Assembly: GCA_003168335.1 (NCBI GenBank)
Contig: PMSM01000003.1
Location: 434,001-498,000, forward strand
DNA: 64,000 nucleotides
Direction of reading: 5' to 3'
Source of the DNA: Blastocatellia bacterium
GTDB taxonomy: Bacteria; Acidobacteriota; Blastocatellia; Pyrinomonadales; Pyrinomonadaceae
The notes under the pieces were generated by a model. The model was not told the DNA's origin, ran no database searches, and saw only the letters and a list, made by a program, of their open reading frames with translations. A program made the translations under genes and the position numbers. Below are positions 4,241 to 60,246 of the stretch, piece by piece. The first letter of the stretch is position 1. Each line of letters opens with the position of its first letter.

Positions 4241-4482
4241 ATTTTCCATTCATCATTTCTCAGTCATTGAGCGAACGTCTTTGGTGGGAGCGCGGACGTC
4301 CCGTCCGCACTGAGCGCGAAGCGCGAACAGTGTTGCTGAATTTGGCTTCAAGTGGAATGGGAGCGTGCTGCGCACGCTGTGCGGACGGGACGTCCGCGCT
4401 CCCAGCGGATTGAAGCCTCCCCCTTTCAAGGTTGGCCACTAGCGACGCTCAACTGGCAAATGGCAAATGGAAAATCAATTCG
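4241..4482. repeat. nested inverted element: heptamer arrays flanking a 24-bp perfect inverted repeat
   Basis: attttcc/attcatc/atttctc/agtcatt at 4241-4268; GGGAGCGCGGACGTCCCGTCCGCA at 4286-4309; its exact reverse complement at 4380-4403; ctcaact/ggcaaat/ggcaaat/ggaaaat/caattcg at 4448-4482. Confidence 0.75.
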
Positions 4483-32443: not shown

Positions 32444-33403
32444 TCACAGCTCCGACTCTTTGGCTTTCAGCACGACCGGCCGCCCCCGCTTTCGCAGAAC
32501 CAGTAACAATCCGACGATCAGGACCACAGTCACCCCGCCTGCCAGCCGCACGATGTTCATTACTACCGCGCCGTATTTTCCCGTCGCCGGATCGTAGTGA
32601 TAACAGTAAAGCAGCAGCGCATCGACGGGCGTGCCGATTTTGTTTTGCGAGGCTTCAACCAGGCCGAGGCGCAAGTCTTTCGGCGGATACTCGATGCCGT
32701 AAAAATAACGGGCGAGTTTTCCCTCCGGGGTCAGGACCATGATGCCGCTCGCGTGGGCGAACTGGTTTGTCTGCTCGTCCCAAACATAGCGAAAACCAAC
32801 GGCTTCGGTTAGCCGCTTGATGTTCGCTTCATCGCCGGTAAGAAAATGCCAGCCCCCTTCACCTCCGGGGCGGTTGTAAGCCTTCACATAAGTACTCTTC
32901 TTGGCGGCGGCCAGGTCCGGCGTTTCGCGCGAATCAAAACTGACCGTGACTACTTCATACTGTTCGCCAATATTGAATGAGATTTGTCTGAATGCGCCCA
33001 GCTCTCCATTCATGACCTGATTGCAGAGCATCGGGCAGGTGTAATAAACCAGAGACAGCACGACCGGCTTGCCGTTGAAGAACTGACTCAGACGCACCTC
33101 GCGGCCCTGCTCATCTTTGAAAACGGCGTCGAGCGGAATTTGCTCGTTTAATCTCTGATCGATGCCGACGTTCTTCAGGGCTTTTGGTAAGCCGGTCGAC
33201 ACCGGTCCGGATTCGGGACGCGTGCCGTAAAGCGGCAGGTTTGGTTGCGGTACGCCGGGCTGCCCGAGAGCAAGTAGGCAGTAGGCAGAAAGCAGGAGGC
33301 AGACTGCAGGAAGCAGACGGCAGGAGCCAGACGGCAGGAAGTAAATGGCGAAACGCACAGCGCCAATCACGCCGGCGAGTTTTCTGCATACTGCCTTTTG
33401 CAT
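32444..33403 (-). CDS. SCO1/SenC family copper chaperone
   Basis: KPVVLSLVYYTCPMLCNQVM; N-terminal hydrophobic segment encoded by heptamer repeats. Confidence 0.9.
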   Translation of the reverse strand: MQKAVCRKLAGVIGAVRFAIYFLPSGSCRLLPAVCLLLSAYCLLALGQPGVPQPNLPLYGTRPESGPVSTGLPKALKNVGIDQRLNEQIPLDAVFKDEQGREVRLSQFFNGKPVVLSLVYYTCPMLCNQVMNGELGAFRQISFNIGEQYEVVTVSFDSRETPDLAAAKKSTYVKAYNRPGGEGGWHFLTGDEANIKRLTEAVGFRYVWDEQTNQFAHASGIMVLTPEGKLARYFYGIEYPPKDLRLGLVEASQNKIGTPVDALLLYCYHYDPATGKYGAVVMNIVRLAGGVTVVLIVGLLLVLRKRGRPVVLKAKESEL

Positions 33404-33450
33404 ACTGCCTTCTCTTTCCTGCCTACTGCTTCCTGCTGTCTGCCGCCTGC
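33274..33450. repeat. inverted pair of heptanucleotide arrays around the SCO start codon
   Basis: 33274-33343: gtaggca gtaggca gaaagca ggaggca gactgca ggaagca gacggca ggagcca gacggca ggaagta; 33381-33450: tttctgc atactgc cttttgc atactgc cttctct ttcctgc ctactgc ttcctgc tgtctgc cgcctgc. Confidence 0.85.
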
Positions 33451-33959
33451 GGTCTCGCTGGTAGTCCCTGCTTCAAAATTTCTTCTTTCGCTTTTTCGAT
33501 CGACAGGCCGTATCGCTGGCCGCTTTGATCGACCGGGCCGTTCTCAAGGATGTCGTCCCAGTGCCGGCGCAGGATCTTGATCTCGTACAGCGCGTTTTTC
33601 GGTTGTGCGGCGCCGGCCGTAATGGCATTGCCGGACTCTTCTTTCTTAATTGCCGCGGCCTTCTCAAGATCTTCCGCGAAGCCCGGCGCGCCCTGCAGGC
33701 GCGGCTCAGGCGGCAGACGATCTTTGTCGGTCAGCGCCATGGGTGACGGCGGCGGTTCCCTGGCTTCGTTTTCGAAAGAGCGAAACAAAGCCCACGTGAG
33801 AAAGAAGGTGGCAATGGTCAGCACCGAGAGTCCGACGAGAAATTTCACGATGCCAGAGACCTGGACGTCGCTGACCTCGTGGGCGACATCGACGTTCTTG
33901 ATGCGCGCCACGTCCGGCGCTTCCGTCACGTGACCTTCTTTGTGATCTCTCTCAGTCAT
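33423..33959 (-). CDS. hypothetical single-TM protein in act-cox operon
   Basis: ORF in conserved operon position; TM then EPRLQGAPGFAEDLEK. Confidence 0.7.
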   Translation of the reverse strand: MTERDHKEGHVTEAPDVARIKNVDVAHEVSDVQVSGIVKFLVGLSVLTIATFFLTWALFRSFENEAREPPPSPMALTDKDRLPPEPRLQGAPGFAEDLEKAAAIKKEESGNAITAGAAQPKNALYEIKILRRHWDDILENGPVDQSGQRYGLSIEKAKEEILKQGLPARPQAADSRKQ

Positions 33960-34048: not shown

Positions 34049-35236
34049 TCAATGTCCCGCATGTGCGGCCAGCGCCTGCTCAAGCTGTGGATCGTTAATC
34101 GGGACCAGCGAACGCTTTTGCAACTGCCACGCAAAGGTCGCAATCCAGAGTCCGCCGATCGCAAACGGCGCCACCAGATCCATCCAACTCAAATGAAAAT
34201 GCTCACGATTGAAGCTCGGCTCGATCAGCCAGATCACATCCACCACGCGGGTTAACAGAATCAATAGTGCCAGCATCCCCAGCCGCTGCGGACTCTTTTT
34301 GGCCGCGCGCGACAATAGCGTCAAGAAGGGAAAGACAAATTGCAGAATGACGATCCCCAGCGCAATTACACCCCAGCCGCCATGTTTGCGCGCGACGAAC
34401 CAGACGGTCTCTTCGGGCAAGTTTGCCGACCAGATAATCAGGTATTGCGAGAACGCAAAATACATCCATAGCATTACCAGGGCCATCATCAGATTGCCCC
34501 AATCATGAAAATGCGACGTGCGCACGACCGCGTTCATAGGCTCGCGCTTTGCCAGCCACGACATTACCAGAATGCCGAACGCCAGCGCGCTTAAACTCCA
34601 TGAAGCTACAAAGATTAATCCATAGATCGTTGACGACCAGGCCGGGTCGAGGGACATCACCCAGTCGATCGAGGCAAACGTAATGGTCAGTATCAGCAGA
34701 CCCAGTCCCGGCCCGCTGATCATCTGCAAACGTTTCGAGAAGCGGCGATCCGCAGTGCGATCGTGTTGCAGTGAAAGCCAGTTGAGCAACAGCGCCATCA
34801 GCGACCAGATGGCAAAATAGAGCGCCGCGCGCATCATGAAGAATGCCGGATTCAAATAATGGGCGGCCTTTTCGCGCAGCACGGGAACCTGATCCATTTC
34901 CGCCCGGTTCGTCCAGGTGTAGATTTGATTCAACCCCACCAGCACCGGAATGAACAGCATCAACATCAGCGGCAGCGTGCGGGTCGCGGCTTCGAGCACG
35001 CGGCGAATTATCAGTCCCCAGGCGCCACCGGTCAGATGCTGCAACATCAAGAGCGCCATGCTGCCAATCGTGATTCCGATCCAAAAGATGAAGCCAACCA
35101 GATAAGCGTGAAAGAACTGCGTCCGATCAACCAATAAGCCGAAAACCAGCAGCGCGAAGAACAGCGCGCCTACGGCCAGCGCCAGAGTGCTCACTCGCTT
35201 CAAATCTCGCGGAGGTGTGTATCCGGCTTGAATCAC
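34049..35236 (-). CDS. actF: alternative complex III subunit ActF
   Basis: Polytopic NrfD-like-related membrane protein; probable GTG start at 35236 overlapping actE stop. Confidence 0.88.
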   Translation of the reverse strand: MIQAGYTPPRDLKRVSTLALAVGALFFALLVFGLLVDRTQFFHAYLVGFIFWIGITIGSMALLMLQHLTGGAWGLIIRRVLEAATRTLPLMLMLFIPVLVGLNQIYTWTNRAEMDQVPVLREKAAHYLNPAFFMMRAALYFAIWSLMALLLNWLSLQHDRTADRRFSKRLQMISGPGLGLLILTITFASIDWVMSLDPAWSSTIYGLIFVASWSLSALAFGILVMSWLAKREPMNAVVRTSHFHDWGNLMMALVMLWMYFAFSQYLIIWSANLPEETVWFVARKHGGWGVIALGIVILQFVFPFLTLLSRAAKKSPQRLGMLALLILLTRVVDVIWLIEPSFNREHFHLSWMDLVAPFAIGGLWIATFAWQLQKRSLVPINDPQLEQALAAHAGH

Positions 35237-36006
35237 TTCTTCCCTCCGGGAGCGCGGACACCCTGTCCGCCGGGCTTGATGCTCGGCGTTTGGGCCGCTT
35301 GCGCCGCGGGCATCTGGCTCAACTGCAAAGCGCGAATGTAGGCGATGATCTTCCAACGATCCTCAACCGGGATCTGTGACGCATAGGAAGGCATCGCGCC
35401 CCAACCGTTGGTCATCGCATCAAAGAAATGCCCGACCGGCGCCTGGCGCAGACGATCCTGGTGATACGAAGCGGGCAAAGGTTTGTTAAAGCCGCGGCGC
35501 GCGATCATGCCGTCGCCATCACCGGTCGCGCCGTGGCAAACTGAACAGAAAATGTCGTAGCGCTGCTGGCCGCGATCGAGCACCTCTTTGGTGATCGGAA
35601 AAGGAAACGTCTCGACGTCATCCGGATACAACGCCGCGGAAGCGCCGGTGGTCGAGACCGGAGTCGCGGCGCCCGGCGGTACCGGCTGGGCCGTGGTGCC
35701 GGCATTCGATTTCTTTCCGAAATAGAATTCGCGATCGGCGCGCAGGTAACCACGCGGCACCGTGCCCGGAACCAGCGGTCGCGATGAGAGACCGTCCCGG
35801 AAGAAAGAGTTCTCGCGAAAAGCTTTTGCCTTGGGCTGGTCCTGCATGTCTCTTCTGCAAGCAGAGGTGAGCAGTAAGCAGTAAGCAGTGAGCAGCAAGC
35901 ACAAGAGACGCCGGGACGCGGGGAAGCGGGGGCGCGGCGAAAAAGATTTCTCCGTGTCTCCGTGTCTCCGGGTTTCCGCGTCGGGTGTTTTTCTACAGCT
36001 CAACAT
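35233..36006 (-). CDS. actE: alternative complex III subunit ActE, mono-heme cytochrome c lipoprotein
   Basis: CSVCHG heme motif; lipobox LLTSAC encoded by heptamers. Confidence 0.9.
   Translation of the reverse strand: MLSCRKTPDAETRRHGDTEKSFSPRPRFPASRRLLCLLLTAYCLLLTSACRRDMQDQPKAKAFRENSFFRDGLSSRPLVPGTVPRGYLRADREFYFGKKSNAGTTAQPVPPGAATPVSTTGASAALYPDDVETFPFPITKEVLDRGQQRYDIFCSVCHGATGDGDGMIARRGFNKPLPASYHQDRLRQAPVGHFFDAMTNGWGAMPSYASQIPVEDRWKIIAYIRALQLSQMPAAQAAQTPSIKPGGQGVRAPGGKK
35867..35984. repeat. heptanucleotide array plus inverted octanucleotide arrays in 5' end of actE
   Basis: gtgagca gtaagca gtaagca gtgagca gcaagca (35867-35901); gggacgcg gggaagcg ggggcgcg; tctccgtg tctccgtg tctccggg tttccgcg (35949-35980). 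Confidence 0.8.
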
Positions 36007-36553
36007 CGACGACCTCTCTCGCTTCCAGACTCTTCAAAAACCGCCTCGCTTCGTCATGATCGAATTTGGGATCCTTTGATTCGATTACCAGAAAGAAACT
36101 ATCGCGCGTCGCCAGGGCAAAATTCGGCGCATTGAAAACCGGATGATAAGGCTGCGGCAGCTTGTTTAGCGCCAGCATGCCGAATACGGCCGCGAACGCG
36201 GCGCACAGAACGATGCATTCAAACGTAATCGGAATAAACGCCGGCCAACTGTTGAAAGGTTTGCCGCCGACATTGAGGGGATAATTGATCACTTCCATCC
36301 AGTACTGCATGAAGAATCCGCCCAGGCCGCCGATAATCCCGCCGGCCAGGACAATCAGCGGCAGGCCGGTGCGGGTGAATCCAATCGCTTCCGAAAGTTC
36401 TTCGATCGGGAACGGCGAGTAGCCATTGATCTTTCGATAGCCCGCCGCGTACGTCTCGCGGGCGGCCGCGACCAGTGTGCTCGGGTTATCGAACTGGGCC
36501 ATTACGCCGTAGAGTCTTGATGCCTTGGTCTTCACCATATGGGGCCTATTCAC
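35993..36553 (-). CDS. actD: alternative complex III subunit ActD (DUF3341)
   Basis: YGVMAQFDNPSTLVAAARETYAAGYRKINGYSPFPIEEL. Confidence 0.92.
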   Translation of the reverse strand: MNRPHMVKTKASRLYGVMAQFDNPSTLVAAARETYAAGYRKINGYSPFPIEELSEAIGFTRTGLPLIVLAGGIIGGLGGFFMQYWMEVINYPLNVGGKPFNSWPAFIPITFECIVLCAAFAAVFGMLALNKLPQPYHPVFNAPNFALATRDSFFLVIESKDPKFDHDEARRFLKSLEAREVVDVEL

Positions 36554-58384: not shown

Positions 58385-58550
58385 ATTTTCCATTTGTCGT
58401 TTTCCATCATTCTTCGCGGCCGTTCGTGTGTTTTAGTGGATCGTTCTTCATTTCTCAGCTACGCACACGACCCACGAAGTACACTAAGCAACACTAAATG
58501 AATGCCGCAGATGGCGAATGAAAAATGTCAAATGACAAATGGAAAATGAT
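58385..58550. repeat. inverted heptamer element, copy 1, overlapping start of 58525 gene
   Basis: attttcc atttgtc gttttcc atcattc ... gaatgaa aaatgtc aaatgac aaatgga aaatgat. Confidence 0.8.
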
Positions 58551-60077: not shown

Positions 60078-60246
60078 ACCATTTTTCATTTATCATTCGC
60101 CATTCTTCTTCGTGTGATTTCGTGGATCGTTCTTCATTTCTCAGCGAAACGAACGATCCACGAAGTGACACGAAGCAACTCTAACTAAATCCCAAGTGGC
60201 AGATGAAAAATGTCAAATGAGAAATGGGAAATAACAAATGGAAAAT
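60078..60246. repeat. inverted heptamer element, copy 2, overlapping start of 60210 gene
   Basis: accattt ttcattt atcattc gccattc ... ggcagat gaaaaat gtcaaat gagaaat gggaaat aacaaat ggaaaat; shares exact 24-nt GTGGATCGTTCTTCATTTCTCAGC with copy 1. Confidence 0.8.

Follow-up and report, generated by a model that had tools for sequence, protein, structure and literature searches.

Tandem heptamer repeats are a long-noted, unexplained feature of many bacterial genomes. In Xanthomonas (GGGAATC) and Nostoc (GGGGAYT), heptameric SSRs form 7-nt tandem arrays that are chiefly intergenic, and a Xanthomonas genome holds some 70 convergent inverted heptamer pairs (PMC4692102). In the passages of that source that concern these repeats, each genome has a single G-rich unit type, and neither signal peptides nor a link to PF05635 is described. 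TAACTGA heptamer direct repeats are found just 5' of start codons in Beggiatoaceae, Cyanobacteria and Bacteroidetes; their authors pointed out that protein ends are tolerant and that the reverse strand can be translated (LSVISYQ), and proposed a regulatory role (PMC4679880). The text of that paper mentions neither signal peptides nor four-helix-bundle proteins. The Rickettsia palindromic elements (RPEs; Ogata et al., reviewed in PMC10969869) are palindromic repeat DNA in frame; they are ~150 bp long, fall into few conserved families and occur in metabolic proteins.

The elements considered here are, like the TAACTGA repeats, heptamers at gene starts, but the TAACTGA repeats are mostly direct, unpaired and of one unit. 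They resemble the RPEs in being palindromic and in frame, and differ from them in having locus-specific units and in clustering in leaders. Intergenic heptamers, convergent Xanthomonas pairs, start-codon TAACTGA repeats and in-frame RPEs are already known. What appears to be new is the recurrent use of inverted heptamer pairs as material for signal peptides, together with the placement of PF05635 genes between heptamer arrays; no report of either was found in the literature covered, which takes in few subscription journals.

The window, a 64,000-nt stretch of a Pyrinomonadaceae genome (class Blastocatellia, Acidobacteriota; contig C7:434001-498000) whose family was assigned from named relatives, carries on its minus strand an alternative complex III operon and a SCO-like gene. 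The ORF at 35233-36006 (translation MLSCRKTPDAETRRHGDTEKSFSPRPRFPASRRLLCLLLTAYCLLLTSAC-RRDMQDQP) is ActE: it encodes a monoheme cytochrome c, belongs to an act cluster with actA-actD upstream, and resembles the solved ActE chains. It starts at ATG 36006, with a 14-nt overlap with the actD stop, and its leader reads MLSCRKTPDAETRRHGDTEKSFSPRPRFPASRR-LLCLLLTAYCLLLTSA-C. The features of this locus are as follows.

35233..36006, minus strand: actE, alternative complex III monoheme cytochrome c (ORF; PF13442, 2.8e-11; ActE chains 8k9e_E and 6f0k_E)
36013..36018, minus strand: Shine-Dalgarno-like GAGAGG, 6 nt 5' of ATG 36006 (sequence reading)
35949..35980, minus strand: octamer array, 5' arm, coding for ETRRHGDTEK (lag-8 identity 0.61)
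35913..35936, minus strand: octamer array, 3' arm, inverted relative to the 5' arm, coding for SPRPRFPASRR (arm alignment 18/26, shuffle p 0.02)
35867..35901, minus strand: heptamer array, pyrimidine strand coding (CTGCTTA/CTGCTCA), giving the h-region CLLLTAYCLLLT (TRF; codon map; synonymous-null p 0.006, L001)
35857..35868, minus strand: lipobox-like T-S-A-C, with the Cys codon at 35857-35859 as the conserved mature N-terminus (codon map; alignment)

The hydrophobic core of the leader is the translation of the heptamer array at 35867-35901, which on the plus strand reads GTGAGCA/GTAAGCA/GTAAGCA/GTGAGCA/GCAAGCA; TRF reports a period-7 array at 35870-35901 with 4.6 copies. An earlier note on this DNA had proposed that these heptamers code for the leader, and TRF and the codon map confirm it. 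It had also counted the lipobox as part of the array, which is not the case: the array starts at 35867 or 35870, and the Cys codon lies outside it and is ancestral, since Cys-R-x-DMQDQP also occurs in orthologues with ordinary signal peptides. C1, R2 and DMQDQP are invariant across 11 aligned orthologues (mature N-terminus CRxDMQDQP). There is one more unit, CTGCTTG (35864-35858), which is out of register and extends into the Cys codon. As for the proposed lipobox LTSA-C, T-S-A does occupy positions -3 to -1 (35868-35860), but with T at -3 and L at -4 the predicted box is loose, not strict. The leader otherwise has the features of a lipoprotein signal, namely a basic n-region, a hydrophobic h-region and a +1 Cys (SRR-LLCLLLTAYCLLLTSA-C). 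A lipobox is also found in ActE of Rhodothermus ACIII, where lipidation has been suggested (PMC5928083).

Most of the n-region is coded by the two octamer arrays, to which the earlier note had traced the codons preceding the heptamers; it called them opposed, and they form an inverted pair. Lag-8 identity over 35906-35985 is 0.61, vs 0.25-0.36 at the remaining lags. On the plus strand the 5' arm reads tctccgtg tctccgtg tctccggg tttccgcg (35949-35980), so that the four copies of tctccgtg earlier counted are two exact and two degenerate; the 3' arm reads gggacgcg gggaagcg ggggcgcg (35913-35936). Only the h-region arm of this leader is heptameric, and it has no clear inverted partner. An 11-bp inverted repeat around the array (35848-35858/35899-35909) was judged likely to be chance. 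Twin-arginine export via SRRLL was set aside given the Sec-then-heme order for c-type cytochromes, which receive heme after Sec export.

Period-7 arrays are dispersed through the window's genome beyond chance. In 1.26 Mb of stretches there are 27 lag-7 arrays with a score of at least 18 (one of them a run of N) and none in a 3rd-order Markov null, so the window array is not a chance occurrence. Periods that are not multiples of 7 mostly give 1-6 arrays per lag, one at each lag being the N run. Genome-wide pattern searches found 28 matches to CTGCTBNCTGCTBNCTGC and none to the reversed control. Inverted array pairs are common in these genomes and chiefly intergenic, and array interiors are nearly missing from genes; the repeat is found in frame inside genes as well as outside them. 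All four GCAG/CTGC-type pairs run purine then pyrimidine, vs pyrimidine then purine in 10 of 14 cases of adjacent lag-7 arrays of all types, so the purine-to-pyrimidine order belongs to the GCAG/CTGC type and not to every heptamer. Array order seems to be fixed per heptamer type.

There is a simple coding reason why such DNA could serve as a leader. Seven and three have no common factor, so all frames of an array translate into one and the same cyclic heptapeptide. By the genetic code, CTGCTTA gives LLTAYCL (GRAVY 1.96) and TTTTGCC gives FCLLPFA (2.27), both stop-free; in CTGCYTN and TTTTGCC units generally, the pyrimidine strand is hydrophobic and without stops, and basic peptides come from the purine strand: KAEGRRQ (+2) and GKRQKAK (+4), or, in CTGCYYA units, a purine strand with one stop. 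A purine-then-pyrimidine pair has the same order seen from either strand, and with this strand asymmetry it reads as basic n-region, loop and hydrophobic h-region, the very layout of a signal peptide.

Some 50 codons at the 5' end of actE are probably a translated copy of a dispersed element, an inverted tandem-array pair that has been domesticated as a Sec/lipoprotein signal. The element would consist of two short inverted tandem arrays with a unit of 7 nt, sometimes 8; inserted in a leader, the pair would supply n-region, loop and h-region, and the repeat leader would take over from the ordinary ActE signal, presumably with Sec/lipoprotein use. Gain, loss and replacement would recur, with leaders accepting nearly any basic plus hydrophobic sequence, and later selection would retain the peptide as the DNA repeat erodes. 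From sequence, we infer both that repeat leaders direct export and that the element is mobile.

Leaders of 109 ActE orthologues from Pyrinomonadaceae, nearly all from MAGs, were compared. At lag 7 their identity peaks at 0.397, where synonymous reshuffles give 0.318 (z 29); lags of 14 and 21 nt peak as well, and 54% of the leaders are individually beyond the synonymous null (p<0.05). Identity reaches 0.467 in the 30 nt preceding the Cys and falls to 0.224 following it; in the same orthologue set, mature ActE and ActD give no 7-nt signal. The n-region matches the reverse complement of the h-region of the same gene better than that of a different gene (20.6 vs 15.1; permutation z 10.9), with a z of only 2.6 in direct orientation. 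The pooled statistics ignore relatedness, for which these same-gene/other-gene permutations are conservative. In one leader (MKAKVKRQKVK...FAFCLFTFAF, L118) 25 of 25 bases are paired between arms; another reads QKAVGRKQKAE...CLLLTAFCLL (L120). The unit varies by orthologue, from CTGCYTA (CLLLTAYCLL) to TTTTGCC/TTTTTAC (FAFCLFTFAF), others or none. Ordinary leaders are found in Pyrinomonas methylaliphatogenes (MVSGGSGRWRVAALALTFAAALFGVGC; L024/L232) and in L027 (MLKNRLLGLLTVMLLFLGAGC). Two leaders of ~80-100 residues (L012, L013) are so long that the true start may be internal.

Repeat leaders also occur in two further families of the class (L199, L204, L207-L209, L212). Among ActE genes of Ignavibacteriae/Bacteroidetes MAGs, L258 (NYELRITK...FLTSYFLLLTLTSC) has a lag-7 score of 34 and L263 one of 23; L269, L285 and L292 have no repeat leader. 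A tree gives 23-29 changes, suggesting recurrent gain and loss, although it is poorly resolved and the events are neither dated nor firmly counted.

The SCO-like gene carries the same kind of leader, with an n-region beginning MQKAVCRK.

32444..33403, minus strand: SCO-like protein, leader with MQKAVCRK... n-region and CRLLPAVCLLLSAYCLLALGQP h-region (PF02630, 1.5e-6; 22 orthologous leaders)
33273..33337, minus strand: heptamer array, h-region arm (TRF; inverted repeats I1-I8)
33384..33455, minus strand: heptamer array, n-region/upstream arm, reverse complement of the h-region arm

Across the 22 orthologues, lag-7 identity of the SCO leaders is 0.38-0.51 vs ~0.25 elsewhere. The peptide L(S/T)AYCLL, which the earlier note had reported as common to ActE and the SCO-like protein, is indeed present in both, and there is support for its suggestion that the same repeat was used convergently as a secretion signal, which can be widened to many ActE orthologues, to SCO and to single exported proteins. 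In the window's genome, heptamer leaders of this last kind belong to an Omp85/POTRA protein, a Reg_prop sensor, a VWA protein and an unassigned protein (C7:315699-316487); in a relative (G044), signal peptides were found at three of eight inspected array loci. As a family, Omp85 leaders have a modest repeat signal, mainly in the window's genus. The earlier note contained nothing on the inverted-pair architecture of n-region and h-region, on the untranslated element before cytosolic genes, or on PF05635.

The untranslated form is seen at asnB. At 30 loci, lag-7 identity is 0.41-0.45 over the 90 nt upstream of MCGI and 0.17 just after, and at 26 of them the upstream frames have in-frame stops. 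AsnB is cytosolic, its MCGI start being set by the catalytic Cys. The arrays stop where the mature protein begins in ActE and SCO, and at the start codon in asnB, from which it follows that they fill the stretch ahead of the mature protein and are translated where that stretch is a leader. In many species (L329-L358) the arrays stop exactly at the asnB start codon, possibly as a 5' UTR element.

A different account would make LLTAYCL an ancestral, protein-conserved part of ActE, with the DNA repeats a by-product of low-complexity hydrophobic codons. Similar LLTAYCLL peptides do occur in several genera, and 9 of 30 LLTAYCL-type h-regions are no more repetitive than synonymous reshuffles, a weak form of the case, raised earlier, of orthologues that keep the peptide without repeat DNA. 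These nine look like eroded repeats whose peptide was retained, and retention during erosion would point to later selection on the peptide and is not evidence against a repeat origin. With an overall synonymous-null z of 29, heptamers that differ between orthologues (CTGC, TTTTGCC, other) or are absent, h-region DNA whose reverse complement forms the n-region, and the same sequence untranslated upstream of asnB, this account is very improbable.

Whether the repeats are translated to any purpose is a separate matter. If the arrays were neutral intergenic DNA and ActE really started downstream, for example at the in-frame TTG 35904, little of the array would serve as a signal, and tolerance rather than domestication would suffice; arrays are mainly intergenic, and those at asnB need no translation. 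This is unlikely given the good Shine-Dalgarno at ATG 36006, the actD overlap and the comparable M[LWS] context at the start of many orthologues. The reading frame is moreover open through all 109 leaders, and a TTG start would still leave the heptamer h-region as the sole possible signal. It is also doubtful that the arrays act as RNA or DNA (a translation-regulating hairpin, a terminator or an RNase III site) with the peptide incidental, even though inverted pairs could form long stems, the asnB and recR-pyrE copies are untranslated, and 24% of leaders fold with z < -2 vs synonymous shuffles, with some values close to -7. Excess folding is absent from the window leader (z +0.3), leaving a hairpin function for this actE unsupported, and peptides stay signal-like where the DNA repeats have eroded. 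Domestication as a signal peptide is the reading kept here.

A candidate for the maker of the arrays comes from PF05635/TIGR02436 genes, which encode four-helix-bundle proteins. Three of these in the window's genome are framed exactly by inverted heptamer arrays (C10:78516-78833, L436; C14:263408-263725; C14:264416-264724). When left flanks were compared with the reverse complement of right flanks, Blastocatellia loci (L419-L448) scored 41.3 within a locus vs 17.3 across loci (z 17.7), and 26 of 29 exceeded the random 99th percentile used as threshold, vs 4 of 193 similar-sized control genes of the window's genome. In Bacteroidota/Ignavibacteriota MAGs (L449-L468), 18 of 19 loci pass (z 13.7). 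Every locus has its own distinct heptamer. The bracketed protein matches TIGR02436 (2.3e-31) and, below threshold, Avd (2.1e-10); solved relatives are 2gsc (XCC0516) and 2rld. Classical intervening sequences (IVS) sit within 23S rRNA. They too have a PF05635 gene between inverted arms, but the loci found here are intergenic and their arms are heptamer arrays.

At the recR-pyrE junction (L469-L498), a PF05635 gene lies between arms in the window's genome (G000) and in G113, and at 15 of 30 scanned loci an inverted repeat with no gene inside exceeds the 99th percentile of shuffles. Most of these are heptamer arrays whose unit differs per genome, a pattern no more than suggestive of element movement. 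Median ActE leader repetitiveness is 4 in genomes without a detected PF05635 gene and 13 in those with one (Mann-Whitney p 0.006). The association is correlative and, with relatedness ignored, significant solely as presence/absence (Fisher p 0.044; Spearman on counts p 0.095); each of its three exceptions is a MAG, 71-88% complete. A tentative possibility is that array pairs and PF05635 genes form one element family, present in at least Acidobacteriota and Bacteroidota/Ignavibacteriota, with gene-bearing copies that have the PF05635 gene between their arms and gene-less copies lying between genes or serving, independently of frame, as signal peptides in or beside leaders, and that the PF05635 protein makes or spreads the arrays. 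Such a family has the inverted terminal repeats and dispersed copies of MITE/REP-like elements; it has no single conserved element sequence, as the heptamer differs per locus.

If these readings hold, an essential respiratory protein of a soil Acidobacteriota family would owe its export signal to translated repeat DNA of intergenic type, and selfish-looking repeats would apparently have been converted repeatedly into working protein address labels, a concrete and recurrent path from noncoding repeat DNA to a functional protein part. PF05635, a family of unknown function related to Avd of diversity-generating retroelements and bracketed by heptamers at nearly all loci tested, may offer a first way into the question of how heptameric repeats are made. 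For annotation, the peptides LTAYCLL, QKAVSSK, FAFLLFTF and KVKRQKAK are a warning of translated repeats.

Several further arrays were encountered. The window has others of the AATGAAA/AAATGGA type, unlike the CTGC type, at 4450-4475, 58517-58548 and 60203-60246. AT-rich pairs in G000 (C9:28546-28678, C9:297651-297772 and C14:232881-233049) place the pyrimidine array before the purine one, the reverse of the CTGC order. An in-frame purine arm, GRRQKAEGRR, is found around residue 499 in an Mfd-like ORF of 1007 aa (L402, G044 C6:59674-59698), in a linker-like place, and the prepilin leader of a pilin-like ORF (L049, G000 C10:119299), NSKQKAVSSKQ...VLPTAACLLPSNSRG-FTLLELM, holds an inverted heptamer pair.
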